Shown here: positions 8,534 to 58,122 of the stretch, piece by piece
Layout of the letters: each line of letters starts with the position of its first letter
How positions within the stretch are numbered: position 1 is the stretch's first letter
Assembly: GCA_963971425.1 (NCBI GenBank)
Contig: OZ020517.1
Span: 26,430,668-26,494,667, forward strand
Source: Bryoerythrophyllum caledonicum
Lineage: Eukaryota; Streptophyta; Bryopsida; Pottiales; Pottiaceae
Direction of reading: 5' to 3'
Length of the DNA: 64,000 nucleotides
Position numbers and translations under genes: made by a program
The notes under the pieces: model-generated
Database searches by the model: none
What the model was told of the DNA's origin: nothing
What the model saw: only the letters and a program-made list of their open reading frames with translations

Positions 8534-9236
8534 ATTTTCACCATGGGATAGTTGTGAGAAAAGTTTCACAGCTGCCAACTTTGACACCCTCCCAAGGATT
8601 GAGGAAATTTTTTTGCCCATGGAATTTTTGGAGTGAAAATAACTTTATGTTGATTACATGTGTGGAAATTTTCAAGTCCAAAAAATGCACGAAAAAAATA
8701 CGTCCCAAACCTACCAACATGTGTAGTTGTGAGAAACAAAGAGAAAAACCATTTTACTATTTCCAACTTTGACACCCTCCCTAGGGCTGAGAGTTTGTTA
8801 TTTCAACATGAAATTTTTGACACACGGTTGTCTTTATGTTGATGACATGTGGGGAAAATTTCAAGGCCAGAAAATGTATTCAAAAGAAGATATTCAAAAT
8901 ATACTAACATGGGGGTTAGCTATGAGAAAAGTTTCAGAGCTGCCCCTTTTGACACCCTCCCAAGAATTAAAAAAATTTATTTGTCCATGAAATTTTGGGT
9001 TTGAAGTCACCTTCACGTCAAATACGAGTGTGGAAAATTTCAAATCCAAAAGATCTACACAAAAAAACATATACCAAGTCTACCAACATGTGTTGTTGTG
9101 AGAAACAAAGGGGAAAGCTTACCACTACTTCCAACTTCAACACCCTTCCTAGAATTGAGTTTTTCTTGATACATAATGAAATTTTGGTCACAAGATCACC
9201 TCTATGTTGGCAACATGTGAGATAGATTTCAATTGG
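8534..9236 (+). mobile_element. Truncated Tc1-like terminal repeat arm
   Basis: This stretch is homologous to 32345-33038, the inner three quarters of the left 948-bp terminal inverted repeat of the Tc1-like element. It keeps the internal units marked by CCAACTTTGACACCCTCCC and relatives. The outer end, with the CAGTAGGG terminus, is missing. At the inner end it runs directly into transposase-derived sequence (see the pseudogene at 9225-9535), so this is a deleted relative of the element at 32.1 kb. Confidence 0.85.
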
Positions 9237-32135: not shown

Positions 32136-33083
32136 CAGTAGGGTGACATTCAAATTGGCGTTTGGGCAATTCCAGGGATGGTGTCCCACACTGCTGCCAA
32201 CTTTGACGCCCTCCACAGGGCTGAATAATTGTTCTTTTACCCTGAAATTTTGGGAACAGCATCACCTCTATGTTAAAAACATGCATACCAAATTTCAAGT
32301 CCAGAGGACTTATAAAACAAAAGATATCAAAAATTAACCACCATGGGGTAGCTGTGAGAAAAGTTTCTCAACCGCCAACTTTGACACCATCCCAAGGATT
32401 GAGGAAATTTTTTTTGCCCATGGAATTTTTGGAGTGAGAACACCTTTATGTTGATTACATGTGTGGAAATTTCCAAGTCCAAAAAATGCACAAAAAAAAA
32501 TCACATCCCAAATCTACCAACATGTGTAATTGTGAGAAAAAAAGGGAAAAACCATTTTACTACTTCCAACTTTGACACCCTCCCTAGGATTGAGGGTTTG
32601 TTATTTCAACATGAAATTTTTGACACATGGTAACCTTTACGTTGATAACATGTGGGAAAATTTTCAAGGCCAAAAAATGTATTCAAAAGAAGATATTCAA
32701 AATCTACTAACATGGGGGTTAGTTGTGAGAAAAGTTTCACAGCTGCCCACTTTGACACCCTCCCAAGAATTCAAAAAAATTGATTTGTCCATGAAATTTT
32801 GGGTATGAAGTCACCTTCACGTCAAATACAAGTGTGGAAAATTTCAAAATCCAAAAGATTTACACAAAAAAACATATACCAAGTCTACCAACATGTATTG
32901 TTGTGACAAACAAAGGGGAAAGTTTACCACTACTTCCAACTTCAACACCCTTCCTAGGATTGAGTTTTTGTTGATACATAATGAAATTTTGGCCACAAGA
33001 TCATCTCTATATTGGTAACATATGAGATAGATTTCAAAGCCAAAAGATGTATATACAAAAAAAAATTATTCCATATCTACCAA
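32136..33083 (+). repeat. Left terminal inverted repeat of the Tc1-like element (948 bp)
   Basis: Built from five degenerate units of about 185 bp. Each unit carries CCAACTTTGACACCCTCCC or a close variant, at about 32197, 32375, 32566, 32746 and 32936, with spacings of 178, 191, 180 and 190 bp. The alternating spacings suggest a roughly 370-bp higher-order unit. The right arm repeats the structure in inverted orientation. Confidence 0.9.
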
Positions 33084-33873: not shown

Positions 33874-34884
33874 ATGATGGCAATTTCAGATGAAATCCGT
33901 GCTCGCATTATAGGTTTGAGTGAGGGAGGAAATACAGAAGTTCAAATTGCAGCCATTACTGGAGTTTCTGTTAGAACAGTTCAGAGGTTAGTAAAAACGT
34001 TTAAAGAAGATGGAACTTATAAGCGCAAACCTTGCGGTGGAAGTCACGCTAAAAAACTTAGTGAGAGAGATGTGAATAATATTGTGCGTTATGCAAAAAC
34101 TCATCGTCGTTCCTCGGTCTCAGAGATTACTAATATGTGCCGTACTCAAGTGTGTAGATGTACTATTCAAAGGGTATTACATAAAAGTAGTATTTTTAGT
34201 CGAATTGCAATCAAAAAACCTTTCTTGACATCCCATCACATGTCTCAACGGTTAGCTTTTGCTCAGAAGTACCATGGATGGAGTCCAAAAGAGTGGGAGC
34301 GTATTGTTTGGACAGATGAATCTACTTTTGAGATTGGAAAAAGTTCTCGGCAAATTCATGTTTGGAGAAGTGCATATGAGCGTTATTCATCAAGTTGTAT
34401 AGTTCCTACTTTTAAAAGTGGACGGACATCTTTGATGATTTGGGGTGCATTTGCTGGAGGACAAAAGTCACAACTTGTCTTAATGCCAAAAACTCAACGT
34501 TCTGCTAAAGATTTTGTTGAAGTGGTCTACGATGGCGAATTGATTCATTTCTTGAGTAGACTTCCAGAAGGAGTGCTAATGGAAGATGGTGCACCTGTTC
34601 ATCGTAGCAAAATATGTGAAGAATGGAGACAAACCCACCAACTCGAAAAGCTCAATTGGCCTGCAAACTCTCCCGATCTCAATCCAATCGAGAATGTCTG
34701 GAGGATGCTAAAAGATGTTGTGCAACATGGCAAGGAATGCCCTAGAAACTTAGAAGTGATGAAGGTAGTTCTTGAAAAAGACTGGAATTTGGTTAGTGGT
34801 ACAAAGCTCCTTCAACTATGTCATTTTATGCCCTCAAGGTTACAAGCGGTGATTGATGCTAATGGAGGACATACACGTTGGTAG
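33874..34884 (+). CDS. Tc1-like transposase, DD34E, intact
   Basis: A cut-and-paste transposase, 336 aa, close to the usual 340 aa for Tc1 proteins. Residues about 5-47 form a helix-turn-helix DNA-binding unit (EIRARIIGLSEGG, VQIAAITGVSVRTVQRLV), followed by a basic linker and a second helical unit to about residue 110. The catalytic core has D148 (WTDESTF), D238 (VLMEDGAPVH) and E273 (SPDLNPIENVW), with 34 residues between the last two, so it is DD34E. SLMIWGAF at about 186-193 is another family landmark. The frame is intact from ATG to TAG. The last codons lie inside the inner edge of the right inverted repeat, so repeat and gene share sequence. A start at the second Met is equally possible. 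DD34E elements are common in animals but unusual in plants, whose mariner elements are usually DD39D (family knowledge). Confidence 0.95.
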   Translation: MMAISDEIRARIIGLSEGGNTEVQIAAITGVSVRTVQRLVKTFKEDGTYKRKPCGGSHAKKLSERDVNNIVRYAKTHRRSSVSEITNMCRTQVCRCTIQRVLHKSSIFSRIAIKKPFLTSHHMSQRLAFAQKYHGWSPKEWERIVWTDESTFEIGKSSRQIHVWRSAYERYSSSCIVPTFKSGRTSLMIWGAFAGGQKSQLVLMPKTQRSAKDFVEVVYDGELIHFLSRLPEGVLMEDGAPVHRSKICEEWRQTHQLEKLNWPANSPDLNPIENVWRMLKDVVQHGKECPRNLEVMKVVLEKDWNLVSGTKLLQLCHFMPSRLQAVIDANGGHTRW

Positions 34885-35042
34885 ATATGGAATAATTTTT
34901 TTTTGTATATACATCTTTTAGCTTTGAAATCTATCTCATATGTTACCAATATAGAGATGATCTTGTGGCCAAATTTTCATTATGTATCAACAAAAACTCA
35001 ATCCTAGGAAGGGTGTTGAAGTTGGAAGTAGTGGTAAACTTT
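34878..35042 (-). repeat. Right inverted repeat of the Tc1-like element, inner part
   Basis: The reverse complement matches 32920-33083. The match stops abruptly after GGTAAACTTT, where the 12.5-kb element begins, and resumes at 47594 with CCCCTTTGTTTGTC. Confidence 0.9.
35040..35042. repeat. Probable TTT target duplication of the 12.5-kb element, left
   Basis: The undisturbed left arm reads AAACTTTCCCC at this point. Here AAACTTT is followed by CAACACG, and at the other end CGTGTT is followed by TTTCCCC. The duplication is therefore TTT, or TT if the element ends one base later; the T run makes it ambiguous. Confidence 0.7.
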
Positions 35043-35073
35043 CAACACGCAATTAAGCAATTATGCACTTGGC
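35043..35073 (+). repeat. Left terminal inverted repeat of the 12.5-kb element
   Basis: Contains AATTAAGCAATTATGCACTT, mirrored at 47560-47590. A nested GTGCACTT inverted motif follows at about 35083-35090. Confidence 0.88.
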
Positions 35074-35611
35074 CATATGAAAGTGCACTAAGGTACAACG
35101 GCGGCCATTGCGAACAAAAGTGGCAAAATTGCAAGAAAAAAAAACAAAGGAAAAAAAATGATTTCCAAAGAAAAAAAATTGAGCTTCTTCAACAATATTA
35201 CGTACAATCATGGTTGTTCATACTGGAAGCGATTTTTTGGCATTTTCAACTAATTTGTGGTGGCCCCTCGTTAATACTAGATAAATGTGTATGTAATATA
35301 GTTTCACAATATTTCAAAGATAGATTTGAAGGATTGTAGTATACAAACAGGCGTAATCACAGAAAAACATACTTTATGCAAGGGTTGGCAGTTGATTAAA
35401 AGATATTCAACGTAGTATATAATGCATATAATGGTGGAAACTAAATATAGATTCTTCTACAAATGGACTTAGAACCAATAGTAAAATTACCTTTACTCTA
35501 TAGGATTAATGACATAACGTCTTACATCACCCTTACAATATACTACTCTTACACATACACTATATATCAATTACTATACACAACTAGTATACTCTCATAA
35601 AGGCACACTAT
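35074..35611. other. Element interior downstream of the DUF7869 gene; no gene seen
   Basis: AT-rich, containing the 3' flank of the minus-strand gene. The 124-codon plus-strand open frame crossing 35,000-35,340 spans the insertion junction and is not a real gene. Confidence 0.5.
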
Positions 35612-38600
35612 CTACTCCATAGAATTTAAGGCTGCTTGCCAACGGTCATCATCGATAGCTTCGGTTTGCATTGCAATATATTGTAGGATGTGAGCCTTTG
35701 CCGATTGAAGAATGCGAATCCTGCTTTCAACCTGGACTCCAAATACATTGCGCTTTCTCCACCCACTGGCCCCTGACATGGTTCTTTCCGGAGAGTCTAC
35801 CCATGAAAAAATGCATGCATCTTTCTCTACCCAACTATGGCTCTCCCTAGATGGCTCCCAGATTGAGTCCATGCAATTTGCATACCGTTGTGCAGAAGAC
35901 CCATGTCCATCAACAACCCCCCTTTGGATGATGGGCCAATACCAACAAACCTTTATCTTAAGTCTCCATCGGTTTTTTCCTTCTTCAATCACTTTCCCCA
36001 CATAGAATGGTACACCGCCTTCTATCTCTGCTCGATCAACACTCAAGGCTACAAACTGTCCACAACGGATATCAGATTGTCGATTAAATGGTGGAAATGG
36101 GTCGTGATTACCTTCATACATTGGTCCTTCTTCGGCGCATTCCTCAACATAGTTGCGCTCTGTTTGTTGTGCCCTACGCACAACTTGATTAGAGGGTCTT
36201 CCTCTACGACGACCAAAGTATCCTCGAGCCTTGGCATTTAGAAGCATGGCCACTACCTGCTCTACGACATGTACCTCGCGATTTTCTTCACTTGCATCAT
36301 CCATTACATCCAAAGATGCACTCTCTGTAGGTCCGATGTTGGAGAACTCTGAAGGCCAAAACGGTGAGGTACGATGCTCATTGCTACGGTGTTTGTGTGG
36401 AAATTGAGCTAAATAGAGTTTCAATCTTTCAGCCTCTACTTTTGCCTCACGATTCTTGTCCTCATGCTGCAACCGTTGCATGCACCTTTGTTTATATATA
36501 ATGAAGTCATCCAACGCCTTCAACTCCCGTTCGTCCGCTGCAAATACTTCCGCAAACGACGGTCGCTCATCCCTACTTGGCAACGACCTCAAAGTTTTCA
36601 TCCCTGCCTTCGGTCCCCATGGATCCTTGCAATAATGCTTGTGTTGTACTCGAACCTCACGAGTCCCTTCTCGATTGTCTATATAGAATCGCATGTGGTG
36701 CGGAAATATTATGTCCACCAATGAATCCTGACCTGTCAATAACTGAGGAGTTATGAACATTTTCCAATCCCATACATTCTCTAGCAGCCGCGCGCTAACA
36801 AATGCCTCCGTAGGAGATATTCCTTGTTCTATAAGACTAATCATTTCCTTCAACGAGTCCACGTCCGACCTCTTCAACGTATTTGATATACAACTGAAAC
36901 GTTGATCAATATCTTTGTGTGTATGGCCTACTATAAGAAAAGATAGTTCTACCTCCTGAAAAAACCCCAATCCCACCAATGTAGCACATAGAGCAAACAT
37001 ATAAATGTTTTTGTTCTCACGTGTGCAGTTGTCCGCCTGAATTCGCAGTGTTGGTGGCAAAAAGCCCCTCCTCCGCAACACATCTCCAATCACGTACAAC
37101 AATGTACTCACGACTTGGTTGCTATCGTGTTTGTGGTGAGCCCCAAACCACACGTCGCAATATAAACCAATCCCATGTACAAGAGCACCACATAGATGGG
37201 TCTTCACAAATCGGTGTTCAATGTTCTTCACAGACTGACGCATCCTCGGTACCATGGTCGTATTTTGGTCCATGCCATCCACTATGATGCACATATACAA
37301 CTCAGGGCTAATATAACACGACCTCTTGAATATCCAATAATGCCTACGTTGTTCCATCTGCTTGCGCAGATGCAACATAAACAACTCCTTTATTTTTATC
37401 CTTGCATCCGCATTGGTGGTTCCCTCCATGGCACATTTATACTCCCAACAATGATAATATTTTGAGAATCTTGAGAATGGAGGTACCTGAACGTGGGGAT
37501 ACTTGATGCGCCACATCCTCCGGAACGAATTCATAGAAATGGTTTCTCCATTACAAATTCTCTTGACCTCCTCGTTCACGTAATTGAATACATCAAATTT
37601 GGCTGTATTCATAGGAAGGAAAATGAGAGGCACCGCTTCGTTGTCACTCTTACGGCGAATACAACGATGAGGTTGAGGACAACCAGCTTCATCGACAAAT
37701 GATTTTAAGCAAGTATCTGCTGCAGACATTCTAGTGCTGTCTCTGATTGGATCTGAAAGGGTATTGCCGTAAATCGATGTCACTCTTCCATATATTAGAC
37801 AGTCCTTCTTCAATTGCTTAGAGCGCCTCTGTGAATATCCAACCCCAAGAGCGTAGCAAACATTGCAAACTTGTTTCCCATCTAACTTTGTTACAAACTT
37901 GTCTCGACGAGTTCCTTCCGTCCTTGTGTAAAAAGAAACCAGCATCTGTCTCATCCACGTACTTCGTACTGAAAACTCAGTAGCCCATGCATTATATCGC
38001 ATGTCCAATAGATACCTTGCTGGAACGTCCCTCAAACAATTGCGTTTGCATCCTCCTTGTGCCATTGCAATTTGCACGCTTCTAAGGGATACCTTAGATG
38101 GTGCAGCTTCTGTCAATGATGTCTCCCTTGAATCTCTCCTTCTCCTATTTTGCATAGAATAGGGACGACGTGCTGGTCTCAGATAAGAAAATCCATCTAC
38201 ATGGGGCAAATCTTGGATATTTGAGGGAGTAGGCTAGGAAAACGGCGAGTTTTCATCTATGGCGTTAGAAGCTTGACTACTGCGTCGAGACCTCTGGGTG
38301 GATCCAGGTGTGTTGATGAACTCAGGGAAATTAAATTCTGGGGCCATCACTTGTGCAGGCGCTATCTGTGATCCAATGTTTCCATGGACACCTGTAATAT
38401 CAAGTTCTACAGCCACTACACGTAGCAAAGACCGATGCCAACGAATGATCAAGCCCATACACATGCCAAGGCGTTCTCCTACAATCTCTCCGGTCCAATG
38501 CAATGCATCATCTACCCTAGTGATACGCATCGCCACCTCGAATGGGAACAACTTCGACCCATTCAATTCCATGCCACTTTTGAATGCATGCTCCCTAGTT

Positions 38601-38803
38601 GCTAAGCCCACCACATCTCCTCTCTCAGAAAGTAATTCTACGGCTGTATCTATTTCAGATGTCATGATCCCAACAGATCTCTATTGAATTTGCCTTGCAC
38701 GTGCTGCTCGTCCTAAACGAGCCCCCACTGAGCTATTGGAATGCATATTATCCATTTGGATGTGTGGCCGTATCGAAGGAGTCTGAATCGTGCGGCTCTC
38801 CAT
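35612..38803 (-). CDS. DUF7869-type protein, candidate transposase, with two in-frame TAG codons
   Basis: One continuous 1,063-codon frame from ATG at 38803 to TAG at 35612, interrupted only by TAG at 38683-38681 (codon 41) and 38236-38234 (codon 190). After the second TAG, 873 codons are open. Residues about 250-313 carry paired Cys motifs (GCKRNC, VCNVCYALG) suggestive of metal binding. The core holds IIVDGMDQN (about 509-513), LRIQADNCTRENKN (about 589-592) and VGHTHKDIDQRF (about 627-633). These are hallmarks of DUF7869, a family of unknown function. The spaced acidic motifs resemble an RNase-H-like transposase core (inference). The C-terminal FVALSVDR...FYVGKV...IKVCWYWP stretch is BAH-like in feel only. 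The N-terminal 190 codons are low in complexity. Final product and activity are unproven. Confidence 0.8.
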
Positions 38804-39109
38804 TATCACTATTAAAAACATAGGAACATTATGGCTGCACATTAGTCAAAATACATGTACTAATTCTAAACCTTCAAAGCACCATTCATCTAATAAAAGA
38901 AATGTTTCTAAACACATATTTACTGTTCAAAATATGATGATGATATTGGACCTTTTGATAAAACTGCTTTGAAATGAAAAAAATAAGAATTTGTAGAGCA
39001 TGAATTCCTTGCACGGAGTCTTTAACCCTGAAGGTACAATGACAGTCTTACACAAAAAAACACTTCAAAATTGTTGGATTCTAATGCAATAAACAAAAAT
39101 GGAGACGAA

Positions 39110-39670
39110 AAATTTAATTTCTAGTTTTGACCATAGGATCTCACTTAAGGTTTATTTAAGTAATATATAAAAAAAATTTCATAAACTTTGACCGCACAGA
39201 TTGAAAGATAATAGTATTTGAGTCAAGCATATGGTTCATTTTCTTCGCTGCGTGGAGTGGATCAGTAGACTTTGACTTCACTTGGTGTCAAATTTTTGCA
39301 CTACAGAAGGTCTAAATCCATAACCATCTTGTTAAGCATGATGTTAGTTCCTTGTACACCAATTTTTAGAGGTAGAGAACGGGTGTAGCATATTCAAAAC
39401 AATTGTGCAAGGAGTGGAAGTTCGGAATTTGTTAATTCACTCTGTAGATTTTTGTGAACTTAATATGTTTTAGATTAGTACTCCAAAAGGTCAATAAGAA
39501 GGTTTACACCACATATTGTTCTGGAAAAAATAAAAACTAAAAAATAAAAAGATATCTAGGTTTTATTTGAAAAACAAGACGTTTTGTGGATACCTTGCCC
39601 AACACTGGCTGACAATGTGTGAAAATGTTTGTGTTGGTATGTTGTTTTTCACTAAAGACAAGAACCTATT
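39110..39670 (+). repeat. Dispersed repeat, copy 1 in the element spacer
   Basis: Shares with 41930-42480 the phrases AGGATCTCA, TTTGACCGCACAGATTGAAA, CAGACTTTGACTTCA, TTTTTAGAGGTAGA, GGTCAATAAGAAG and GACAATGTGTGAAAAT, all in the same order. More diverged relatives lie at about 19330-19650 and 26740-26900, so this is a genome-wide repeat and not specific to the element. Confidence 0.75.
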
Positions 39671-41054
39671 TTGACAACATCAAAGGAAATAATATTACTT
39701 GCAAGTACTGAAAATCTCACATTTAACAGAGTGTCTAAGCAAAAGTTTTTGGACGTGCCGGACTTGCCCGCTCTCCCCATTTGAAATTCAAAACCCTTAA
39801 ACTTTTTTATCAAATGTCCAATTAAGGTAAAAATTGTTTTCCCACTGAAGTCTTGGTAATGCCTTTCTATAGTAAAATTTTCAAAGAAGGAATGTTGGAA
39901 ACTGACACCATAGGAACGTGCCTAAATTTTGAAAAATCTTATTTTTGACACATGATCCTTTAGGGGCTAAATATGCTACACCTCTTTTGTATCCCTAAAC
40001 ATTGGTGTAAAATGGAACTTATATCAGTTTTGATATGATGATAATGAATCTAGATCAGGTGTGATGCAATCTTTTGAATCCAAGTGAACTGAAAACGAAG
40101 GGAATCCACTAAACCTAGGGAAGAAAATGAACCATGTTGTCTACGAGCTATTACTGAAACCATTGGAACTTGTCACAATCCCTAATAAAAGAAAGGTTTG
40201 TACATCCACATAAAGGTTATTCTACAAACAACATAGTATAGAAGATCAATCAACAATCAATCTTAAACTTGTATAAAAATAAACGTTTACCTCAAGATAC
40301 GTAGCAGGTATTAGTGGTACACGCACTGATGCTTGATGGCGTTAAACATTGAATCACCATTCTGTCGTTGTTATTGGACATGTTTTTTAACCCTTCCCAC
40401 TTTACCTGCGACACATGCATAAAATTTATATGGTAAACTATGTGATAAAAACTCCTATGTATCTTCGTATTACATATAGCCCAAAATTTTAATATATTAT
40501 GTAAAAAGTTTAAACATAAGGAAATACAAAGCAAAAGGTCCAAATTTAGAAAGTCAAATTTTGACTAGTACACTTCAGGCACAAGTTTCCAGCATGGATA
40601 TAAGGTTTCTGTGAAAATCTGGAGGTCATTTCTCTTCCCAGTACCTAAGGTAAGCTCTCTTGCAATCGAAAGCTCAAGGCCATGTGCGTTTTTACTTCAT
40701 TCACTGATTTCTGTCAACTTTGTGTGGACTGTGTAGATTGAAGGAAATTTGCACATCGAGGAGACTTCTGCAAATTTGGTAAGCTTCTAACCTTGTTTCA
40801 ATTCTGAATCCGAAGGAACTCCAGGGTTAGGTTCATGATGATAATAGGTCGGTCAGATTTACAATAGTGTAAGGTCAGCAGTACCAATATTTGAGCATAC
40901 AAACGAGGACACCTTCAGTATGTTCAAAAAATACAAATACAACAGTGAGTCAACTAGTAACATCAAATAGTGACACCAAAACCCACTGAAAACTTCAGTA
41001 ATGTGAGTAGCCCGTAGTGTGGCACTAAATCTATGGAATGGCACATCAGCACAC

Positions 41055-41200
41055 TACTTCAAACCCTAGCTGCCGCAGCCAAACCCTAACCGCCGCAACC
41101 AAACCCTAGCCGCCGGAATCAAACCCTAGCCGCCACAACTAAACCCTAGCCGCCGCAACTAGAAACCCAAACCCTAAAATCAAACCCTAGTCCCCTCGTT
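41055..41200 (+). repeat. 20-bp minisatellite of AAACCCTAGCCGCCGCAAC units
   Basis: Five to six copies of a unit close to AAACCCTAGCCGCCGCAACC, ending in further AAACCCTA motifs. The AAACCCTA core is the plant telo-box. Such arrays are often found in leaders and promoters, but a role here is only a guess. Confidence 0.85.
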
Positions 41201-41514
41201 CCCCATGGCGTTCGCGTGACGCCTCATGGGGTGTGCGCGCGCACACCCCCAACTCCTGGTGCTCCTCCATCCATCCAAAAACTTCCTGGCTCAAACCTCA
41301 TGCAAGGACCTTCGTGATTCCGTCGCGTGCCACCTCTTGACGAAAGTGAGAAAGAGCTTCGTGGGTTCCTGTACACCATTACAATCAACGCTAAAAGTTT
41401 CTGCGCCAGGAGTTTCTGTGAGCCATTCCCAAAACCATCATGATGAGTAGCATCACACTACCTGCGCGGCAGCCCGGCGCAGCAACCCGCACGGCAGCCC
41501 GCACGGCAGCCCTG

Positions 41515-41714
41515 NNNNNNNNNNNNNNNNNNNNNNNNNNNNNNNNNNNNNNNNNNNNNNNNNNNNNNNNNNNNNNNNNNNNNNNNNNNNNNNNNNNNNN
41601 NNNNNNNNNNNNNNNNNNNNNNNNNNNNNNNNNNNNNNNNNNNNNNNNNNNNNNNNNNNNNNNNNNNNNNNNNNNNNNNNNNNNNNNNNNNNNNNNNNNN
41701 NNNNNNNNNNNNNN
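41515..41714. other. Assembly gap of 200 N
   Basis: The left edge is a GC-rich 12-bp repeat (GCACGGCAGCCC), so a collapsed minisatellite is the likely cause. The gap is inside the spacer of the 12.5-kb element, so the element's true length may differ. Confidence 1.
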
Positions 41715-41929
41715 CCTCTAAACAAAACCCTAAATTTCAAACCCTAATTGATACCCTGATCCAATATATGTTGATAACCGGATGTTTGTACTCATGAATT
41801 CATACCCTGGTTGTGATACCCTCTCTATTGATACCCAAAGTACCATAGTCCATAAATGGTGTAGTGAATATCTCAACCAAAACTCCTTAAAAATGCTTGT
41901 TTTAGTGCAATTATCTTGGATGAAAAAAT

Positions 41930-42960
41930 GAAGTTTTTTTAATAGTTTAAACCGCAGGATCTCAATAAATACCTATTAAGTAATATACTCACAAAATTTC
42001 ATAAAGTTTGACCGCACGGATTGAAAGATTATAATGTTTGAAGTTGAGAAAAGGCTCATTTTCATCCCTGTGTTTTATGGACCAGCAGACTTTGACTTCA
42101 ATTGGTGTCCAATTTTTGCATTTTAAAGGGTCTCAATTAATTACCATAATGTTAATCATGATGTTAGTTTGCTATGTACCAATTTTTAGAGGTAGACAAG
42201 GAGTGGAGCATATTCAAAAAAATTGTGCAATGAGTGGAGGTTCAAAAATTCTCAAGTCACGTTATATTTTTTGGGGAACTCGATATTGTTTTAAATGAGA
42301 ATCCAAATGGTCAATAAGAAGTTTTACATCACATAATGCTGTAGGAAAAATCAAAAGTGAATAATACGAAGATCTCAAAGTTTTATGTGGGAAGGTAGTG
42401 GTTTTTTTGGTACGTTGGCCAAAAATGTGTGACAATGTGTGAAAATAATTGACTTGGATTGATATGCTATTTCACCAAAGAACTAACAACATGCTTCACG
42501 TGATGCTATTGGATTTAGATCTTGTATAGTGCAAAAGTTTTTAGAGGTAGAAAAGGAGTGTAGCATATTCTAAAAAATTGTACAATGAGTGGAGGTTCAA
42601 AAATTCTTAATTCACGTTATTTATTTATTTTTTAACTTCATTTTGTTTGAAATGAGAATCTAAATGGTCAATTAGAAGGTTTACATGACATAATGCCGTA
42701 GGAAAAATCAAAAGTGAATCATACGAAGATCTCGAAGATTTATGTAGAAAGGTAGAAGTGTTTTTGGTACTTTGGCCGAAAATGTGTGACAATGTGTGAA
42801 AATAATTGATTTGGATTAATATGCTATTTCACCAAAGAACTAACAACATGCTTAACACAATGGTATTGGATTTAGATCTTCCGTAGTGCAAAAGTTTTTA
42901 AACGTAGACAACGGGTGTTGCATGTTCAAAAAAATTGTGCAATGAGTGGTGGTTCAAAAA
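41930..42960 (+). repeat. Dispersed repeat, copy 2, with a 355-bp tandem portion
   Basis: The first roughly 550 bp match 39110-39670. The part containing 'GAGGTAGA..AGGAGTG.AGCATATTC' is then repeated at about 42189, 42544 and 42901, giving periods of 355 and 357 bp. The last partial unit ends about 65 bp before the ATG of the plus-strand gene. Confidence 0.8.
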
Positions 42961-43026
42961 TTCTTATTCCATACTAATAGTGACTATCGTTTTGTAATGA
43001 TATACAGGTTTTTTGAGTGTTGCGTT

Positions 43027-44553
43027 ATGGCACCACCAAATATTGATAGAATCTGGGAGAGCCACGGCTGGTGGATCGCGGAAGTGGATGAGTCGAACGC
43101 CTTCTTGTGGGTGACGGATTATCCCTTTGAGTTGGGAAAGCGTACATCGGCGTTGGGGAAGAGTTTTGGCAAAATCCAAGCAATCACTCTTCGACGTGAT
43201 GATATGGTATACATTACTTGCGCAGTGGGTCCAGGTCAATCGGAGGTGAAGACTTCTCTTTCGAAGAAGTTGCTTCTTGCACCTGTCCCTTTGAATCTTC
43301 TTCAAAATCCAGGTCAGGTGAAATTCCTCAAATCATTGCAGACGTTTTGGTTGAACATCTCTCTTGCGGTACGTACTGCTAGACACAACAACGTCTTAGC
43401 CTGTTTAGCGTTATCACCGGAGATGGTGCTGAAGGCTAAGAAGATTATGGAGGAACATATTAGATATGAGGCATTTCAGGAGAGGGACCCATCACGTGCG
43501 ACAACTGAAGTCCCACCAGCGGAACCAGAAGAAACAGAAATTTATCGAATTCTTGCTGAGCCGTTGCAACTGGATTGGCGACCACTGGAGGGGGGGAGAG
43601 GAAGTGGAGGCCAACATCCCGCGACAACTTCTGAGGTACAGACATTACCGAATCCTCCATTAACGAGTAGACGTCCTACGAAGAGGCCACGACGTGTTGA
43701 CAGTGATGTAGCTTCTGGTTCAAGAGAAGGCCCATCAAGTTTGGATCCAAGTGGGAGGAGGTTGATTGGGAGAAGTGCAAGATCATGTGCCAGGATTCCT
43801 AGGTCGGGGCTCAGGACGTCTGATGGTCATCGTAGGGCCCCTACATCTACACCGGGAGATTTAGCTGATTTGTCAGCCATGGCGCCGGAGGAAGAAGATT
43901 TTCACAACCTTCCAGACAGTATACCAGAGGATTTTGAAGACGATGCGGAGATACCACATGATCTTCCAACTCCAATGAATTTAAAAGCACCAGTGCCTAC
44001 AACAGAGGAGATTGCGAAAGGATCAGTGTGGAAGAATTTTGTGTTTAAGGCACACATCGACCGCATTGTCTCTGTGGAGAATCCAAAAACCAACCACCGG
44101 ATTTTATCACAGAAGAGGGTCAGAGAAGTATTTAACCGCTTAAGAGACCCAGAATCTGCGAGTCGGGTGAGTAGATTGGTACTTCGACCGATCAAATACA
44201 TCGTGCATACTACCACCGATGATGGTGTCGTTGAGAAGGAAGAGCTGCCATTTCCGTTGGTAGGAACCGCACGAGAATTTGAGCGCATGTTCATTGCACA
44301 CGGGAGTGCTTCTGCACAGGGTGCTATGGGATCCCAATATTCTTGGCTTCAAGATCATATCATTTGCGAACCGGTGGATGGGCAACACATAGTAGCAGCT
44401 TGTAAGTTTGCACAACAGCAGTGGAGAGATGGTACTATGCCTTTAAACGAGTATCTGGACACGTTTGAGCGGCGAGAGTCCTCTTTTGTGGTGTATGATG
44501 ATTGTCACTTTTACATTGAGAAGTCTGCACGGATCAATGTGGCGGAGTTCTAG
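43027..44553 (+). CDS. Large unrecognised element protein, N-terminal part, ends at in-frame TAG
   Basis: 508 aa from the ATG of MAPPNIDRIWESHGWW. The frame is open for a further 27 codons upstream, but that part matches the non-coding repeat, so I prefer this start. Residues 1-150 look folded (GWWIAEVDESN, LWVTDYPFELGK, MVYITCAVGPGQSE). About 180-330 is a disordered, basic and acidic stretch with RRPTKRPRRVDSD, a likely nuclear localisation signal. Residues 350-508 are again ordered (VWKNFVFKAHIDRIV, RLVLRPIKYIVHT, YSWLQDHIICEPVDG). After TAG at 44551 the same frame continues into the next ORF with only six codons before its ATG, so the two are probably one interrupted gene. I recognise no family. 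Confidence 0.7.
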   Translation: MAPPNIDRIWESHGWWIAEVDESNAFLWVTDYPFELGKRTSALGKSFGKIQAITLRRDDMVYITCAVGPGQSEVKTSLSKKLLLAPVPLNLLQNPGQVKFLKSLQTFWLNISLAVRTARHNNVLACLALSPEMVLKAKKIMEEHIRYEAFQERDPSRATTEVPPAEPEETEIYRILAEPLQLDWRPLEGGRGSGGQHPATTSEVQTLPNPPLTSRRPTKRPRRVDSDVASGSREGPSSLDPSGRRLIGRSARSCARIPRSGLRTSDGHRRAPTSTPGDLADLSAMAPEEEDFHNLPDSIPEDFEDDAEIPHDLPTPMNLKAPVPTTEEIAKGSVWKNFVFKAHIDRIVSVENPKTNHRILSQKRVREVFNRLRDPESASRVSRLVLRPIKYIVHTTTDDGVVEKEELPFPLVGTAREFERMFIAHGSASAQGAMGSQYSWLQDHIICEPVDGQHIVAACKFAQQQWRDGTMPLNEYLDTFERRESSFVVYDDCHFYIEKSARINVAEF

Positions 44554-44571
44554 AGACATTCATATTCTACC

Positions 44572-46377
44572 ATGGAGGAGGATTTGAGGAAGATCCGTCA
44601 GATTTGGGATCTATACGGGAGGCCTAATAGTACACTATGTGCGGACGATGCACGTAGGGCTGTTGCTTTGGTGAATGCGGCAAGTGCAATGCATAAGTTG
44701 CCCAAGGGGGATGGAGTTGTCACAGTGAAGAGGTTGGCCAAAAACATGGAGGATCTGACCAATCATGCATGGAATCCGAGCAATGACTGCTTCGAAGCTA
44801 TCATTCAAGTATGCAAGGACTACGAAGATGACATTCTTTTTTACAGTAAAGAGGAAGAGGACAAGTGGAAGGACATGGCGAGGAAGAAAGAGCTGGATCC
44901 AAATGTGGACGTACGACCAACAAGAAAGGAGATGACCCAGAATTGGTTGAGGCCGTTAGGTAGGGTTCCAAATCCATATTATCTTCGGTTGGCAAAGTCT
45001 GCTGCAGCGAAGCCGGTGACGGAGGATGGAGTAAGACCTCGTCAAGCATACTACTTCGACGGTGTAAAAGACAAGAATCCACATCCTCGTACGATTGCCG
45101 GTGTTTGTGACCGATATCAGAGACGAGAAGCTGTGATCAATTCCATCCGTTGGTTGATGGTGGAGAACAAGGAAAGTACACCTGAATCCATGGAGGAGTT
45201 CTTTCGTATCAGTGTAGGGAGGTATTTTCCGAGGAGTAACGCACAACTTGGTACCTTTGGGAAGCTTTTGAATGCTGCCACGAAAAAAACTTGGACTGCT
45301 CATGTGCGGGGGAAGGTGTCTAAGCTGGAAGACATAGGCTACCTCATCCCCCCTTCCATCAGGTTTCACTATGGTGACATTGCAGCAGGAGGCCGTGGAT
45401 ACATTGGATTGTCCGTGGATGTGGGAGGACAGGCTACTGCTAATTGGGAATGGCAGATGGAAGTCAAGAGGCCAGGCCAGAGCGACACAGAGAATTTTCT
45501 TCCGATTTGGTGTAGAAGAGGGTTATTCCGCACCGACTACATAGAGTTGGGGAAACCATGTTTGTGGGTGATTGATTGTCGACGTGGCGGTGGGAGGCAT
45601 GGAGATGGTCATTGGGGAGACGCCCAGTTATCCGCAGCTTTTGCACAGCTGTCCTTATGGATGGCAAATATTGAACGATGGAACATCATCTTCTTGTTAC
45701 CAGCGGCCGTGTATGCCAACAAAGAGTTTTTCACGAAGGTGAAGCTTCTAGAAGGATGTACTATGCGACGTGGATGTTGGGCATTTGATCCGAACTCCGT
45801 TAATCTCTATGCTCTCGGTTTTACAGAGGATGGGCGTCTGGAGCAAGTAGTACAACCGATTGGCGATGTTGTGATTTGTATGCAGCACCTTGTGGGTACA
45901 TCTCCTGGCCCGAACTATGTTTCTGGAGACGTTCCACTTCCTCTTGTTTTCTTGGATCACTGGAGTGAGACACGCCAATCCTCTGAAGTTGATTCACTTG
46001 AGAGATCTCCATCAGAGCTGGCAAGACTAGTGGGCTCATACTTGCCCCGTGGTTGGGGTTTAGTGGCGTGTAACATATCTATGGCCATTCCCACGATCCT
46101 TGAAGGAGATTTTCAGGGATCTGAGGTTTTCATCATTGACGATTGTACAGACAGAGTTTCATTTCTGTACAATGAGTTGTCTGACAATTTCCAAGGACAA
46201 CTGTTGGTCAGGACTGGTGGAACAAGTATTGGTTGCAACATTGTACCTGTGACCGAAGAAGCGATTGGTGGAGTGAGGAATGAAGACGACAATGAGGATG
46301 GAGGTGGTTTACATGAGAGATTGCCACGTTCAGGTAACACTGAAGATTTTTCAGCTCGCAGTGGTTCACTCCGATGA
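44572..46377 (+). CDS. Large unrecognised element protein, central part (601 aa)
   Basis: In frame with the preceding ORF. Distinctive well-ordered blocks include WLRPLGRVPNPYYLRLA (about 124-140), RYFPRSNAQLGTFGKLL, a Gly-rich YGDIAAGGRGYIGLSVDVGG (about 270-290), and a His/Asp-rich CLWVIDCRRGGGRHGDGHWG (about 330-350), which is followed by IIFLLPAAVYANKEFF and RGCWAFDP. The last set recalls a nucleotide or methyl-donor enzyme fold, but there is no diagnostic DPPY/DPPW motif, so I assign no function. The length and lack of repeats argue for a real, selected protein. It ends at TGA after a Ser/Gly-rich tail, while the next frame remains open (see 46280-46990). Confidence 0.75.
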   Translation: MEEDLRKIRQIWDLYGRPNSTLCADDARRAVALVNAASAMHKLPKGDGVVTVKRLAKNMEDLTNHAWNPSNDCFEAIIQVCKDYEDDILFYSKEEEDKWKDMARKKELDPNVDVRPTRKEMTQNWLRPLGRVPNPYYLRLAKSAAAKPVTEDGVRPRQAYYFDGVKDKNPHPRTIAGVCDRYQRREAVINSIRWLMVENKESTPESMEEFFRISVGRYFPRSNAQLGTFGKLLNAATKKTWTAHVRGKVSKLEDIGYLIPPSIRFHYGDIAAGGRGYIGLSVDVGGQATANWEWQMEVKRPGQSDTENFLPIWCRRGLFRTDYIELGKPCLWVIDCRRGGGRHGDGHWGDAQLSAAFAQLSLWMANIERWNIIFLLPAAVYANKEFFTKVKLLEGCTMRRGCWAFDPNSVNLYALGFTEDGRLEQVVQPIGDVVICMQHLVGTSPGPNYVSGDVPLPLVFLDHWSETRQSSEVDSLERSPSELARLVGSYLPRGWGLVACNISMAIPTILEGDFQGSEVFIIDDCTDRVSFLYNELSDNFQGQLLVRTGGTSIGCNIVPVTEEAIGGVRNEDDNEDGGGLHERLPRSGNTEDFSARSGSLR

Positions 46378-46990
46378 AGATGGAGTGAACCAGTCTCCTC
46401 CAAGAGAGGAGATTCCATCAACGCAGCAGACGGTGGGAGGTACTTCAGGGGAGACGTCTGCAACACCTACAGAGAGGATGCAAGATACCGGTGTAGTGGA
46501 TGTTGGTTTGGCGGCAAGGGCAGGAGGGGAGCGTACATTTGATGGTCCTAGGTTGGAGATGGAGGAAGAAGAATTGGATTCATTGGAATTTTTTTCGGTG
46601 CAGAGGAGGATTCCACAGCCTTCTATGCCTTCTCAATCAGAGCCTGTATCGGAGACACAAGAGACGTTCAGAGGTACTCAGAGTGATACCGGACCAGGTT
46701 TGCCTTCCGTTCTAAGATCTAGCATATCCGAAGACATCATTGCATTTCAGAGGGCCTTCTCGTTAGAGCGAGAGATGTCCTTCAATCGAGAGGATGGCTT
46801 TTTCTACAATGATGGTAGGGTAAGACATACGCGGGAGGGTCTTCCTGACAATTACCGATATGTTGAGTGTGCGTCCATTGGCATCCAAGATGTGGGAGAT
46901 CGTCCAGTGCAAGATCATGAACTGTCCGCTATGGTAGGCAGCGCCATTGGACACATGGAGGGAGTCGTTCCGCGAGAAGATGTGCTCTGA
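46280..46990 (+). CDS. Probable C-terminal extension of the unrecognised element protein, in a shifted frame
   Basis: 236 codons, overlapping the end of the previous ORF by about 100 bases in a different frame. The composition is acidic and disordered to about residue 120, then more ordered (SISEDIIAFQRAFSLEREM, FNREDGFFYNDGRVRH, GLPDNYRYVECASIGIQDVG). The junction carries splice-like signals. Removing 28 nt (46334-46361, GTAACA...CTCGCAG) or 58 nt (46304-46361) would join the frames. A 1-nt indel is an equally simple explanation. The nominal ATG at 46280 is probably not the real start. Confidence 0.55.
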   Translation: MKTTMRMEVVYMRDCHVQVTLKIFQLAVVHSDEDGVNQSPPREEIPSTQQTVGGTSGETSATPTERMQDTGVVDVGLAARAGGERTFDGPRLEMEEEELDSLEFFSVQRRIPQPSMPSQSEPVSETQETFRGTQSDTGPGLPSVLRSSISEDIIAFQRAFSLEREMSFNREDGFFYNDGRVRHTREGLPDNYRYVECASIGIQDVGDRPVQDHELSAMVGSAIGHMEGVVPREDVL

Positions 46991-47559
46991 GCCCTGGAGC
47001 TATATACTATAGTAGAGCATGCACGCAGTTTAGGTGACAAGTACGTTAGTATAATGCAGTTTGAGATGTGTCTATCGTTCGGTGGGTGGTATATATTTAT
47101 ATATTGGGTGGTCCACATGTCATAAGTTTGATTTTAGAATTCCTCAGCAATAGTGTGAAATTGCTTGATTATGTATGTTTTTGCATTATAAAATACAGTG
47201 AGGTACTTTACACTGTCTTAGGAAATTGCATATATATTTTTGTATCTCTTACACATTGTATTTGTAGTGCACTACTCTAAAATCCTATAATAACTCATAA
47301 CAAATTTATAATCTCTTTGGACACATGATTATAATTTTGTAGCAGGATTTGTAAAATAGATTTGAAATCATATATTTTCTAAAAAAAGGTAGCAAATGTA
47401 AAAAATATATTACTGATATGAACATGAAGATGCCAAGGTATGACACGACAAATACCAAAAAAATTTGACAAAAAACATTCTAAACTTTCGCCAAATTTTG
47501 ATTTAAAAAAAAGTTATGAGCAAATAACTTGGGGCTTTCTACCAGCAACCAGTGCACTT
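46991..47559. other. Element interior downstream of the plus-strand gene
   Basis: AT-rich, no gene seen. It presumably holds the 3' untranslated region. Confidence 0.55.
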
Positions 47560-47590
47560 GGCTAAGTGCATAATTGCTTAATTACGTGTT
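47560..47590 (-). repeat. Right terminal inverted repeat of the 12.5-kb element
   Basis: Reads AAGTGCATAATTGCTTAATT followed by ACGTGTT, the inverted match to 35043-35073, followed by TTT and then Tc1 arm sequence. Confidence 0.88.
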
Positions 47591-47593
47591 TTT

Positions 47594-48376
47594 CCCCTTT
47601 GTTTGTCTTAACAATACATGTTGGTAGACTTGGTATATGTTTTTTTTTGTAAATCTTTTGGATTTTGAAATTTTCCACACTTGTATTTGACGTGAAGGTG
47701 ACTTCATATCCAAAATTTCATGGACAAATCAATTTTTTTGAATTCTTGGGAGGGTGTCAAAGTGGGCAGCTGTGAAACTTTTCTCACAACTAACCCCCAT
47801 GTTAGTAGATTTTGAATATCTTCTTTTGAATACATTTTTTGGCCTTGAAAATTTTCCCACATGTTATCAACGTAAAGGTTACCATGTGTCAAAAATTTCA
47901 TGTTGAAATAACAAACCCTCAATCCTAGGGAGGGTGTCAAAGTTGGAAGTAGTAAAATGGTTTTTCCCTTTTTTTCTTTCAATTACACATGTTGGTAGAT
48001 TTGGGATGTGATTTTTTTTTGTGCATTTTTTGGACTTGGAAATTTCCACACATGTAATCAACATAAAGGTGTTCTCACTCCAAAAATTCCATGGGCAAAA
48101 AAAATTTCCTCAATCCTTGGGATGGTGTCAAAGTTGGCGGTTGAGAAACTTTTCTCACAGCTACCCCATGGTGGTTAATTTTTAATATCTTTTGTTTTAT
48201 AAGTCCTCTGGACTTGAAATTTGGTATGCATGTTTTTAACACAGAGGTGATGCTGTTCCCAAAATTTCAGGGTAAAAGAACAATTTTTCAGCCCTGTGGA
48301 GGGCGTCAAAGTTGGCAGCAGTGTGGGACACCATCCCTGGAATTGCCCAAACGCCAATTTGAATGTCACCCTACTG
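47594..48376 (-). repeat. Right inverted repeat of the Tc1-like element, outer part
   Basis: Reverse complement of 32136-32919, including the terminal GTCACCCTACTG and four of the CCAACTTTGACACCC-type units. Few differences separate the arms, so the Tc1 insertion is relatively recent. Confidence 0.93.
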
Positions 48377-53898: not shown

Positions 53899-55797
53899 CA
53901 CAAAACATCTCTACACAATGACCTATATAACTTTATCCATAGCCAAACCCCACCCCCTTCCCCCAATGAACTACAACTAAAATTTTCCTACTTCCCGCAC
54001 AATCTTATTCTTGAAGCTCTTAGATGCTTTGAACCAATTCATGCCTACACGCACCCCACCCCGACACCCGCCTACATTTCCCCTCTACCTTGTAACCAAG
54101 ACATTATAGACAATAGAAACACATATATAACTACATGGAACGCTTCAACGTTAAACACTGCTTTGCCAAGCATCCATAATCTAACCGCCCACACCAACAC
54201 ACCACCCGCCATAATTGCCATACAAGAAACTAAACTAACCGCTATTAAATCCACCAAATACATCCAAAAAACATTCCCCAATTATAAACTTATATTTAAT
54301 AACACTCATTCTCTTACACGATGCATCCAACAACGAATACCATATACACCGGCAAGAGGAAGTTTACTCATGCTCATTCACCAATCATATGCCTTCCCCG
54401 GGAATATTACTAAAATCCCTACCCCGGCTAATATATCACCATATCTTCAAATTATTGAAATTACTAACCGACCCCTCCAACCATGGCTCATCTTTCATCT
54501 ATACATGCCCTTGCACATAGAAGACTATAGGCTTATTTCGGAGATCGAAAACTTCATCACTTCACAAATAAATACACACACTAACCACACAATAATACTT
54601 TGTGGAGACTTTAACCGAGATATAGCCCTTATCGGACGACAAAACGGAGGGGCTTTTACCCCCCCACTGGATACAGACTATCAATGGCAAAATTACACGG
54701 ATGACCTAGAATTATATTTAATCCCAACCGACACACAATACTCCCATCAAGGCGGACTTAATTACACACATACTAGCCTAATTGATGGATTTTACATTAA
54801 AACACCTAACCATACCCAATACACATCTATCACGAACACCACAACCAACTTAAACTCGGACCACTTCCCAATCCAACTCAATATACCACACAACACCCTT
54901 ATAAGTAGACCTCCAACAAACATCAACTCAAATAATATCAAAATACAAAATCCCATCCCAAAAGAAAACCTTGATAACTTTAATACAATATTCTTTGAAA
55001 AAAACTCACTACAAATAGACTCCCTTACAAAAATTCTTTCTAACCACCAACACCTCACACATGTACAATGGCAAGAAGCTTGCGCCACTCTTGACAAACT
55101 TATTAATGAAATTTCCACTACATTAGAAAAGACCTGTAAAGCACCTCCGATTCCACAACTCACACCTAGAACCTCGCAACAAGGAGGATATCTCCCGAGA
55201 AAACTAGCCAAAGTGTGGAAACAACATCTTCTCACATACCACACCATTCGTAAAACAATTTATATTGCTAAAACTAACCAAAATGGGCAAACCCACCGCA
55301 TACTCTCTGAACTACAAAACCTCCGTCACCCTCAAATCCCACAAATACCACCACCCAATACCCCTCAGGAAGACTGGCTAAAAGACATTGCTATCATTGC
55401 AAAAACCGTCAACATGGAAGCTCGGAAAATTACTACAAAATATGCAAGAGAATGTGTCAAAAAAGCCATTTCTAAGTACCGTCAATTATACGAAACCAGC
55501 CCCAAAAAGATTAATAGAAAAGTCTTTAAAAATAACACAAACCTGCCATTAGATTGCATTTTAGATCAAAACAACAACATCCTAACCAGCCTAGATGACA
55601 TCGCAAACAAAATACATTTTCAACAATCCATAAACAATAGACCAACTACCCCCCCATGTCACTTCCAACCACAACATACATCAACATGCACGTGCGGAGT
55701 TAGACAATATCCGTGGCATGATCTTGACGGATTTACCATTGATAAAAGAGGCAAACCAACAACCCCTCTTCACACATATTATAAGAGAGACACATAA
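53899..55797 (+). pseudogene. LINE ORF2, AP-endonuclease region
   Basis: In frame with the 2A segment after the TAA at 53896. The endonuclease is recognised by TTWNAST (about 54136), AIIAIQETKL (Glu of the active site), IILCGDFNRD (about 54595) and LNSDHFPI (about 54850). These are the conserved blocks of APE-type LINE endonucleases, which nick the target DNA. Downstream of about 54,900 the protein is Asn/Thr/Pro-rich and less conserved, with LPRKLAKVWKQHLL and MEARKITTKYAREC as helical stretches. A TAA at 55795 interrupts the frame just before reverse transcriptase block 1; the next codons remain in the same frame. The codon usage is strongly A/C-rich on this strand. Confidence 0.85.
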
Positions 55798-56265
55798 AAC
55801 ATGTGCCTAAAAAATTTGGGAACCAACAAAGCCCTTGGCCCAGACCACATACCCAACTCAATTCTAAAAAACATGCCCCCAAGATTCCATGACCTAATAT
55901 CATTATTTTTCCTTCATTGCTACAAACAAAAATCCATTCCCGCATCTTGGAAAACAAGTCTAACAATCTTATTATACAAAAAAGGCGGCCCATCAGTGCT
56001 ACCTAACCACCGACCTATTGCTTTAGCTAACACCATTTACAAATTGTATACTAGCACACTAACATCAATATTATCGGCCTATGGGGAAAAACACCAAATA
56101 CTACACGAAAGCCAAGAAGGGTTTAGAGCCGAGAGAAGTACCACACGGCAACTTCAAACCCTCATTGCCGCTCTTGAGGATGCAAAATTCTCTAATAAAG
56201 ACATTTACATACTCTACATTGACTTTAAAAATGCGTTTGGGTCCATCGACCACCCTAGATTGTAG
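55798..56265 (+). pseudogene. LINE ORF2, reverse transcriptase part 1
   Basis: Same frame as the endonuclease region. It contains NKALGPDHIPNSIL, LYKKGG, NHRPIALANTIYKLY, SQEGFRAERSTTRQL and YIDFKNAFGSIDH, the ordered blocks of LINE reverse transcriptase through the first catalytic Asp. The frame ends in TAG at 56263; a missing base at this point shifts the rest into another frame. Confidence 0.9.
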
Positions 56266-56897
56266 CCGTTATGAGCGATCTTGGGTACCCGGAAGATGCA
56301 GTCACATTGGTCGGCAATATATACTCCCAATCTACCACTACATACGTTGGAGAATTCTTTGGTAAAACACGGCCTATCCCCATCCAACGCGGTACCATCC
56401 AAGGCGATACATTGAGCCCATATCTCTTCATTATTTTTCTAGAACCTCTACTGAGATGGCTTCAAAGAGGAAATAATGGCTACACCTTCCGTACCTCAAA
56501 AGTCACCGTTAACTCGGCCGCATATGCCGACGATCTAGCAGCTATCTCCGGACACCTTAAATCACTCCAAACTCAATTAGACAAAATAGACAAATTTTGT
56601 TTACGGACCGGGATGGAACTTGGGGTTCAAAAATGTGCCGTAACTGGATGCCCAAACAAATCCAAAATAAATCCTACCGCCTTCAAAGCCCTTATCCAAG
56701 CTACCAATATCCACTATCGTAACCAACCAATTCCGGTTCTCAACCAAAAGCAACCCTACATATACCTTGGAATAAACCTAGTCCCATCGTTAAAATGGAA
56801 AATTCAAATTCATGCTACTACTACAAAACTTATTAAACAATGCAATGAACTCTCACTATGTTCGGCCACATTGCAACAAAAAATAAAAAATGATTGA
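56266..56897 (+). pseudogene. LINE ORF2, reverse transcriptase part 2
   Basis: Continues the polymerase in the next frame. It contains RGTIQGDTLSPYLFIIFLE and the catalytic AYADDLA (about 56520), then MELGVQKCAVTG and YLGINLVPSLKWK. It ends in TGA at 56895 within an A-rich stretch where a second frameshift occurs. Confidence 0.9.
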
Positions 56898-58122
56898 TAC
56901 CGTCATACGTCCGGGTATCTCATATAGTTTCTATGCGGTGCCTTATTCGATGCCCGCCATAAACAAACTTGATAAAAAAATCATAGCCATACAAAAGAAA
57001 GTATGCGGACTCCCTAACTGTACGCCCAATGTCATAACACAACTCCCCCACGAACTATTCGGACTAGAAGCTTTTTCTCTAAAAAATGCCTACCTACGTT
57101 GCATTGGAGAACAACTCCAAAATGCACTTAACGACAAGGGACAACTAGGACTAATTTACAATGGACTCCTTCGGCACATCCTTGCCATTTATGGAGGAGC
57201 ACAATACCTCCAAAGACTTAAAAAATCTGATTGCCTTCGGTCTCCCGTTATCCGCACACTCTTTCTACTCAAAACAGAAGGCCAAACATTTCTAAAAAGC
57301 ACACTAGAAGATTTCCTACTAGGCCCCGCGCCGCTTGAACAAAATTGGGCAAATGAAATACATAACCTCCCTAGACTTGACCGACAATTATCCGCCAAAC
57401 TCCTACGAAAACTTTTTTCCGCAAACATTACCGATCTAAAACAAATTACACTACCAAATGGAACACACCTTGTGGATGACAAGAGTTACAAAACATTCTA
57501 CGGTACCCCTCACAAATTAATAAAAAGTGCACTAAATATCGCTAAACAGTTATTTTGTCATCCTTCATGCCTCCCCATATGCCCCAACCCTTGCACCACT
57601 CACGCCCCACCTTACACACTTAAAGACCCGTACATCATTGGTCACAATGACATCCATCCCAACATCAACCTCCCATTAATCCCTCCAAACCCGCCACATT
57701 CACGACCATATGCCCCTCCACCACATATATTAAAAAATCCCTCCATGTACCCAATAAACAACATAACCGCGCACAAACATAGAAAGTACATTGACTCCAA
57801 CAACATAAGCAAACAATATACGTCATGTCTAGGCCATTGGCCCCACAATAACACCACCTACAACAAATGGCTCCCGCATAGAAATCTTTTCCCTTGGCAC
57901 AACCCAAACGCTTCCTTACATAACACTGAAATCCTCACACGATACTACCTTAGAACTCAAAACAATTATTACCTGAATATCATACAATTACACCACCCCC
58001 AAGCACAACCTCGAGATAGAAGATTTCTCACGCCACCTCTTATTATTCCCCTCCTCAACATCTTTACAACCGAATGCAACCCCGAAACTGACATCCTCGC
58101 ACAAACAAATACAACAAGATAA
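56890..58122 (+). pseudogene. LINE ORF2, region between reverse transcriptase and RNase H
   Basis: Third frame. It begins IRPGISYSFYAVPYSM and KIIAIQKKVCGLPNCTPN, which is typical of the thumb and connection region after LINE polymerases ('i.p...Yg..v....i..ld....'). The later part is Asn/Pro/His-rich and poorly conserved. It stops at 58120, where the reading must move to yet another frame. Confidence 0.8.

Follow-up and report, generated by a model that had tools for sequence, protein, structure and literature searches.

We analysed a window of 64,000 nucleotides from Bryoerythrophyllum caledonicum (Bryopsida, Pottiaceae; assembly GCA_963971425.1, contig OZ020517.1, positions 26,430,668 to 26,494,667), in which the segment at 35044-47590 (12,547 bp) belongs to a DNA transposon family present in many copies; both genes of this copy are broken. 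The element carries a gene with the domain of unknown function DUF7869 on the minus strand and, pointing away from it on the plus strand, a partner gene of no recognised family. We read the family as cut-and-paste transposons in which DUF7869 acts as a DDD transposase together with a conserved second protein, and give this reading a probability of roughly 0.8. The segment had been marked in an earlier note, made from the letters of the window, as a two-gene mobile element; most of that description held, including the opposite directions of the genes, and several of its details changed, as given below.

The limits of the element follow from inverted repeats, flanking TTTC copies and empty sites in the arms of a Tc1-like element, into which it is inserted. 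The Tc1-like transposase (33874-34884; domains DDE_3 and HTH_Tnp_Tc3_2) is flanked by long inverted arms, and its right arm is split by the 12,547-bp insertion, as the earlier note had proposed. When the two flanks are joined with one TTTC, the resulting 234 bp match, gapless and at 97.9% identity, the opposite, intact arm of this Tc1 element, which lies outside the transposon (minus strand, 33031-32798), so that the limits of the insertion are known to the single base. The search for empty sites, which had been suggested as a check, yielded a second paralogue within the window (an arm copy at 9226-8994, 91.9% identical to the joined flanks with one gap position). The sharp ends were thus borne out, but the start at 35043 had to be moved to 35044, since the sequence common to the copies inspected begins with AACACG or a close variant, and a target duplication is present, but as the 4-bp TTTC (35040-35043 and 47591-47594, with one copy in the Tc1 empty site) and not the supposed TTT. 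The inverted repeats, put at about 30 bp, measure 32 nt (AACACG..., plus strand, 35044-35075, and minus strand, 47559-47590) and are 94% complementary to each other; AATTAAGCAATTATGCACTT occurs twice in the window, both times exactly with up to 3 mismatches allowed, against 0.02 occurrences expected. Inside the terminal repeat at each end of the window copy is an inner inverted repeat, TGCACTT...AAGTGCA (left end, plus strand, 35064-35087), which two copies of a related family and the other left ends inspected also have and which is a possible binding site of the transposase; at the right end the inner palindrome TGCACTTAGCCAAGTGCA (minus-strand reading, 47553-47570) lies within the 33-nt pattern used in the genome search. 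Repeats of the Tc1-like arms were also seen at 8560-9226 (an extra copy at about 8.6-9.2 kb), 32189-33083 and 34871-48323, and the arms consist of units of about 180-190 bp.

The host genome (437 Mb, 894 contigs) contains many further copies. The left end gave 711 matches to a 39-nt pattern with up to 3 mismatches and the right end 983 matches to the 33-nt pattern with up to 2 mismatches (both totals include related families with the same ends), whereas the reversed patterns gave none. The first 358 bp of the element recur at 94-96% identity in at least 39 places besides the window, and the last 351 bp at 96-98% identity, likewise in at least 39. From C1 to C4:12.3 Mb, the region covered by the right-end matches listed, 14 of 20 exact left ends have a listed, correctly oriented exact right end, the spacing being 11.3-14.4 kb for 13 of them and 4.3 kb for one. 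The last is a shortened copy (C3:37110931-37115262, L120 and L121) that retains both ends and is flanked by a perfect GTAA duplication, from which it follows that this deletion derivative moved too. Exact 4-bp duplications were found in 16 of 18 end pairs (4/4, 1/2 and 11/12 in the three batches; for example TGGT in the pair L014/L043), the fetched stretches L041, L042 and L044 (three of the six in their batch) having no left end and standing outside this count. In a related family (copies beside L065 and L067, with DUF7869 about 80% identical), the common sequence begins exactly AACACGCAATTAAGCAATTATGCACTTGGCC between unrelated flanks, and the terminal repeat is kept while the DNA behind it has diverged, as would be expected of a site read by the transposase. 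Inverted repeats, duplications of fixed length, many copies and an empty site place the family among the terminal inverted repeat (class II) DNA transposons; the earlier statement that a DUF7869 gene is carried by a mobile unit whose ends are its own is supported by the empty sites, the hundreds of end matches and the duplications. At C8:4434212-4446877, right-type ends lie on both sides of two oppositely directed partner matches, possibly an inverted pair of elements.

Insertion sites show a preference that extends beyond the duplication. Just outside it, 30 right flanks are enriched in G (0.53), T (0.60) and G (0.43), and 11 left flanks, read outward, in C (0.55), A (0.64) and C (0.45), with five complete copies counted in both sets. 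Pooling 16 complete sites over both strands necessarily yields a symmetric table; in it, A (0.66) and C (0.56) precede the duplication and G (0.56) and T (0.66) follow it. The tail probabilities of single columns range from 5e-5 to 0.05 under assumed background frequencies, uncorrected for the choice of columns. The target preference of the family is thus AC-N4-GT, the symmetry of which would fit two transposase subunits on the two strands and suggests that the transposase works as a dimer.

The DUF7869 gene (35612-38665, minus strand) encodes the putative transposase. In the window it is split into frames at 35612-38209 and 38234-38665; other copies read through, and in many the frame stays open over about 1,075 codons. 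The Pfam domain PF25273 (DUF7869) with the motifs DGMDQ, QADN and GHTHxDID was located by hmmscan at 36665-37213 on the minus strand (residues 333-515 of an 865-aa frame; E=2.6e-49, 167.9 bits against a gathering cut-off of 26 bits). With the same model, at least 150 matches, all above the cut-off, were obtained in the host genome (3,611 candidates at first look) and none in the 14 control genomes. Greedy clustering at 80% identity put the window protein and 28 fetched loci, which are 37-92% identical to the window, into eight clusters; of the 30 loci fetched, L050 and L052 were left out because their frames were too short. Alignment A1 (13 sequences) shows no variation in DGMDQ, QADN, GHTH and DID, nor in D311, D314, D393, D433 and D435; the motifs DGMDQ and QADN stand as first reported, whereas HTHKDID holds for the window and most copies checked have HTHEDID. 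D314 of DGMDQ is separated from D393 of QADN by 78 residues, and D393 from D433 by 39 (D-x78-D-x39-D); the residue preceding D433 varies (E, K or S), so a catalytic role suits D rather than E. From the conserved motifs, their spacing and the hydrophobic stretches that precede them, DUF7869 is predicted to be a DDD-type transposase with an RNase-H-like core.

The partner gene (43027-46990, plus strand) is no longer a single frame in the window copy: a stop stands at 44551-44553, and the frame changes near 46370. It is longer than the 1,100 codons of the earlier note, with about 1,320 codons from the first ATG in the window; copy L075 has it uninterrupted, with 1,337 codons in the fetched stretch and 1,348 in the genome listing, and many other listed copies are alike. 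Its most widely conserved block, P-[VI]-D-G-Q-H (43918-44787, plus strand; alignment A2, six sequences), is also the commonest stretch among the distant matches, and a second block, W-x-x-D-C-R-x-G (45334-46383, plus strand), is conserved in the five sequences of alignment A3, a sixth sequence (L083) having DCCHG in place of DCRxG. The partner matches no recognised family: in scans of Pfam, PHROGs and NCBIfam nothing exceeded the cut-off, and profile searches of PDB sequences with the partner blocks gave no match for one block and two for the other, at E values of 0.4 and 4.8. Weak matches to Dpy19 (E=0.11), TDH (0.056), phrog_14324 (0.15) and two NCBIfam models (0.2 and 0.16) were taken as chance. 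Pattern-plus-tblastn scans confirmed no relative in viral contigs, either of DUF7869 (protein and alignment) or of the partner (whole partner and conserved block), and none of DUF7869 or of the C-terminal partner block in bacterial and archaeal genome contigs. The region between the genes includes an assembly gap of 200 N (41515-41714), and blocks of 300 bp that recur with 87% and 77% identity were seen at 39233-42921, some of them just upstream of the partner.

Both genes appear to be under constraint. Six DUF7869 pairs from window-like families have ratios of nonsynonymous to synonymous substitution rates (dN/dS) of 0.14-0.27. For the partner, three pairs lie at 0.26-0.36, with dS near 1.1 in two of them. 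We infer that selection maintains both genes between families, whereas individual copies decay.

The divergent arrangement recurs at other loci of the host genome. We compared 150 listed DUF7869 matches with 158 listed partner matches (73 and 85, some of them pieces of one gene): the nearest upstream partner lies within 20 kb and is divergent for 60 of the 150, has the same direction for two, and is downstream for none. On contigs longer than 1 Mb, random placement gave on average 0.53 and at most 4 such pairs in 500 trials, against 54 observed. A divergent partner within 20 kb is present in six of the eight DUF7869 clusters, and upstream of L047, in which DUF7869 is only 37% identical to the window, there is a divergent partner homologue with 31% (E=7e-19) and 21% (E=1e-7) identity. 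The partner is a regular companion of DUF7869 in the host genome, but the earlier term "obligate" goes too far, since in two of the eight clusters (L048 and L058) the nearest divergent partner match lies only at 26 and 45 kb. No partner was found in three fetched stretches guessed for clusters L048, L053 and L058; an L053-like copy, L060, has a partner match 13.6 kb upstream. Two regions of C2 (27561320-27607014 and 37927589-37962243) hold DUF7869 matches, one of them L058, with the nearest divergent partner at 45 and 34 kb; such spacings may represent very large or disrupted elements, or chance. Upstream of the L053 DUF7869 copy, in L078 (C9:16375000-16380200), a 132-codon frame occurs three times, every 1,995 bp, and forms a 2-kb tandem repeat.

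Taken together, the data suggest the following mechanism. The transposase would bind the inverted repeats and excise the element, with the aspartates of DGMDQ (the second one), QADN and GHTHxDID (the first one) as its putative catalytic triad; it would then join the element to a target cut with a 4-bp stagger, preferably at AC-N4-GT. The partner probably acts with the transposase as a DNA-binding or complex-assembly subunit, in a role like that of the Myb-like protein of PIF/Harbinger. With exact ends, duplications, end matches and many open frames at hand, the role of DUF7869 as a transposase is directly testable. Several observations weigh against this mechanism. Nothing in the data separates a cut-and-paste from a replicative route, 2 of the 18 end pairs (among them L010/L040) have no duplication, and L060, which lies outside alignment A1, has no match to QADN in its 1,028-codon frame. 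A sequence-profile search of the PDB at E<=10 gave no solved structure for DUF7869. Wider pairs are mostly saturated (dN/dS is 0.10 and 0.17 for two with dS above 2), and for the close pair L047/L045 the ratio is 0.62 with a dS of 0.04. Besides the two clusters with distant partners, for 88 of the 150 listed DUF7869 matches no partner is listed in the 20 kb upstream, which carries little weight because both sets comprise listed matches only.

Among known groups, the element is probably Sola-like, Sola being a superfamily that was reportedly established by Bao et al. in 2009. It may well be a plain Sola element, in which DUF7869 is the Sola transposase, the partner is known or incidental, and only the naming of the domain is new; we consider this somewhat better than an even chance. 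This reading ranks first because the element fits those Sola features that could be checked, the comparison being with published descriptions. In the passages available from two papers, Sola elements have a DDD transposase, 4-bp duplications, inverted repeats of 11-1124 bp and a size of 2-9 kb, in some cases above 15 kb, and are present in Physcomitrella (PMC10741241, PMC9033089). Amoeba Sola2 elements, in the part of a third paper available, have 4-bp AT-rich duplications, and one has a transposase of 888 aa (PMC3627910); Sola is also mentioned in PMC10294476 and PMC12477816. The element agrees with these passages in its 4-bp duplications and in its 32-bp repeats and 12,547-bp length, both inside the Sola ranges; a DDD-type transposase, predicted here from the motifs and the D-x78-D-x39-D spacing, would be a further point in common. 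It differs in its conserved divergent second gene, since the same passages mention no second conserved protein, and in AC-N4-GT, a preference measured for the element.

A separate two-component superfamily, as yet without a name, which would have the 4-bp duplications in common with Sola by coincidence, seems to us about half as probable. It would account for the partner, which has no match over the cut-off in the family databases and none below E=0.4 among PDB sequences, and for the literature searched, which contains no mention of DUF7869 or of the four motif strings; in the titles and abstract openings on Sola or on new superfamilies with 4-bp duplications, no two-gene element of such kind is described. 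On the other side stands the agreement of all features checked with the Sola passages.

A more specific proposal for the partner, which we regard as improbable, is a ParB/Srx-like domain joined to a decayed beta-class DNA methyltransferase, like the ParB-methylase fusions of phages, with a function in DNA recognition or of the partition type. PVDGQH bears what we take to be a resemblance to the GxHR motif of ParB; by eye, DCRxG stands at the place of DPPY and RSPSEL aligns with the KPxxL region. We compared the partner with 10 beta-class methyltransferases (YhdJ of E. coli and nine from phages) and 10 phage ParB domains (phage stretch L091 was unused). The hhalign score for the methyltransferase was 20.5 at that very place against at most 15.9 in seven controls, but the corresponding P value of 0.073 is not significant; for ParB, P was 0.13 (0.85 in global alignment), with one of 13 controls at 0.093, an uncropped run gave a probability of 0.4%, and neither Pfam, PHROGs, NCBIfam nor the PDB lends support. 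The hhalign values of 0.13 and 0.073 thus do not support the partner as a fusion of ParB with an N6/N4 DNA methyltransferase.

Slightly less probable still, the partner could be a fragment of a host gene or a passenger of one amplified lineage with no role in transposition. A partner of no assigned function and the many listed DUF7869 matches without a near partner would fit, but the divergent pairing is kept in six of the eight clusters, down to 37% DUF7869 identity, and the three partner dN/dS values also argue against it. Least credible of all, and very doubtful, is the combined proposal of a two-component superfamily apart from Sola in which a DDD transposase is always accompanied by a ParB/Srx-like and catalytically changed methyltransferase-like protein that recognises DNA.

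Elsewhere in the window, remnants of a non-LTR (long terminal repeat) retrotransposon lie at 54163-60496 on the plus strand, with matches to Exo_endo_phos_2 (54163-55797; E=1.2e-5, under the cut-off) and RNase_H (58370-60496; E=1.5e-10, together with a PCIF1_WW match at 2e-4, under the cut-off).

With these results, DUF7869 gains a defined mobile element with exact ends, 4-bp duplications and a measured target preference. A gene annotated with DUF7869 in another genome is likely to be transposon-derived. Should DUF7869 prove to be the Sola transposase, giving it that name would correct the annotation; otherwise a further superfamily is at hand. Whether these elements need two proteins is a question raised by the conserved partner, which belongs to no known family.

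The element was also compared with other groups of transposons. Instead of the TA duplication of Tc1/mariner, 16 varied 4-bp duplications were found. Ginger1 has 4-bp duplications as well, but Ginger elements, according to the passages available, end in 5'-TG...CA-3' and encode a protein like the Gypsy integrase (PMC10045372, PMC10741241), whereas the element encodes DUF7869 and ends in AACACG...CGTGTT; the ends inspected begin with AACACG or variants of it (AACATG, AAAACG and one ATCGCG), none with TG. PIF/Harbinger, in the passage available, resembles the element in having two main genes, for a transposase (of the DDE type) and for a second protein, but its duplications are 3-bp TAA/TTA and its partner is Myb-like (PMC10741241), while those of the element are 4 bp long and its partner belongs to no known family. 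The window protein is a member of PF25273, for which Pfam names a domain of unknown function only; here the domain is found in a mobile element with defined ends.

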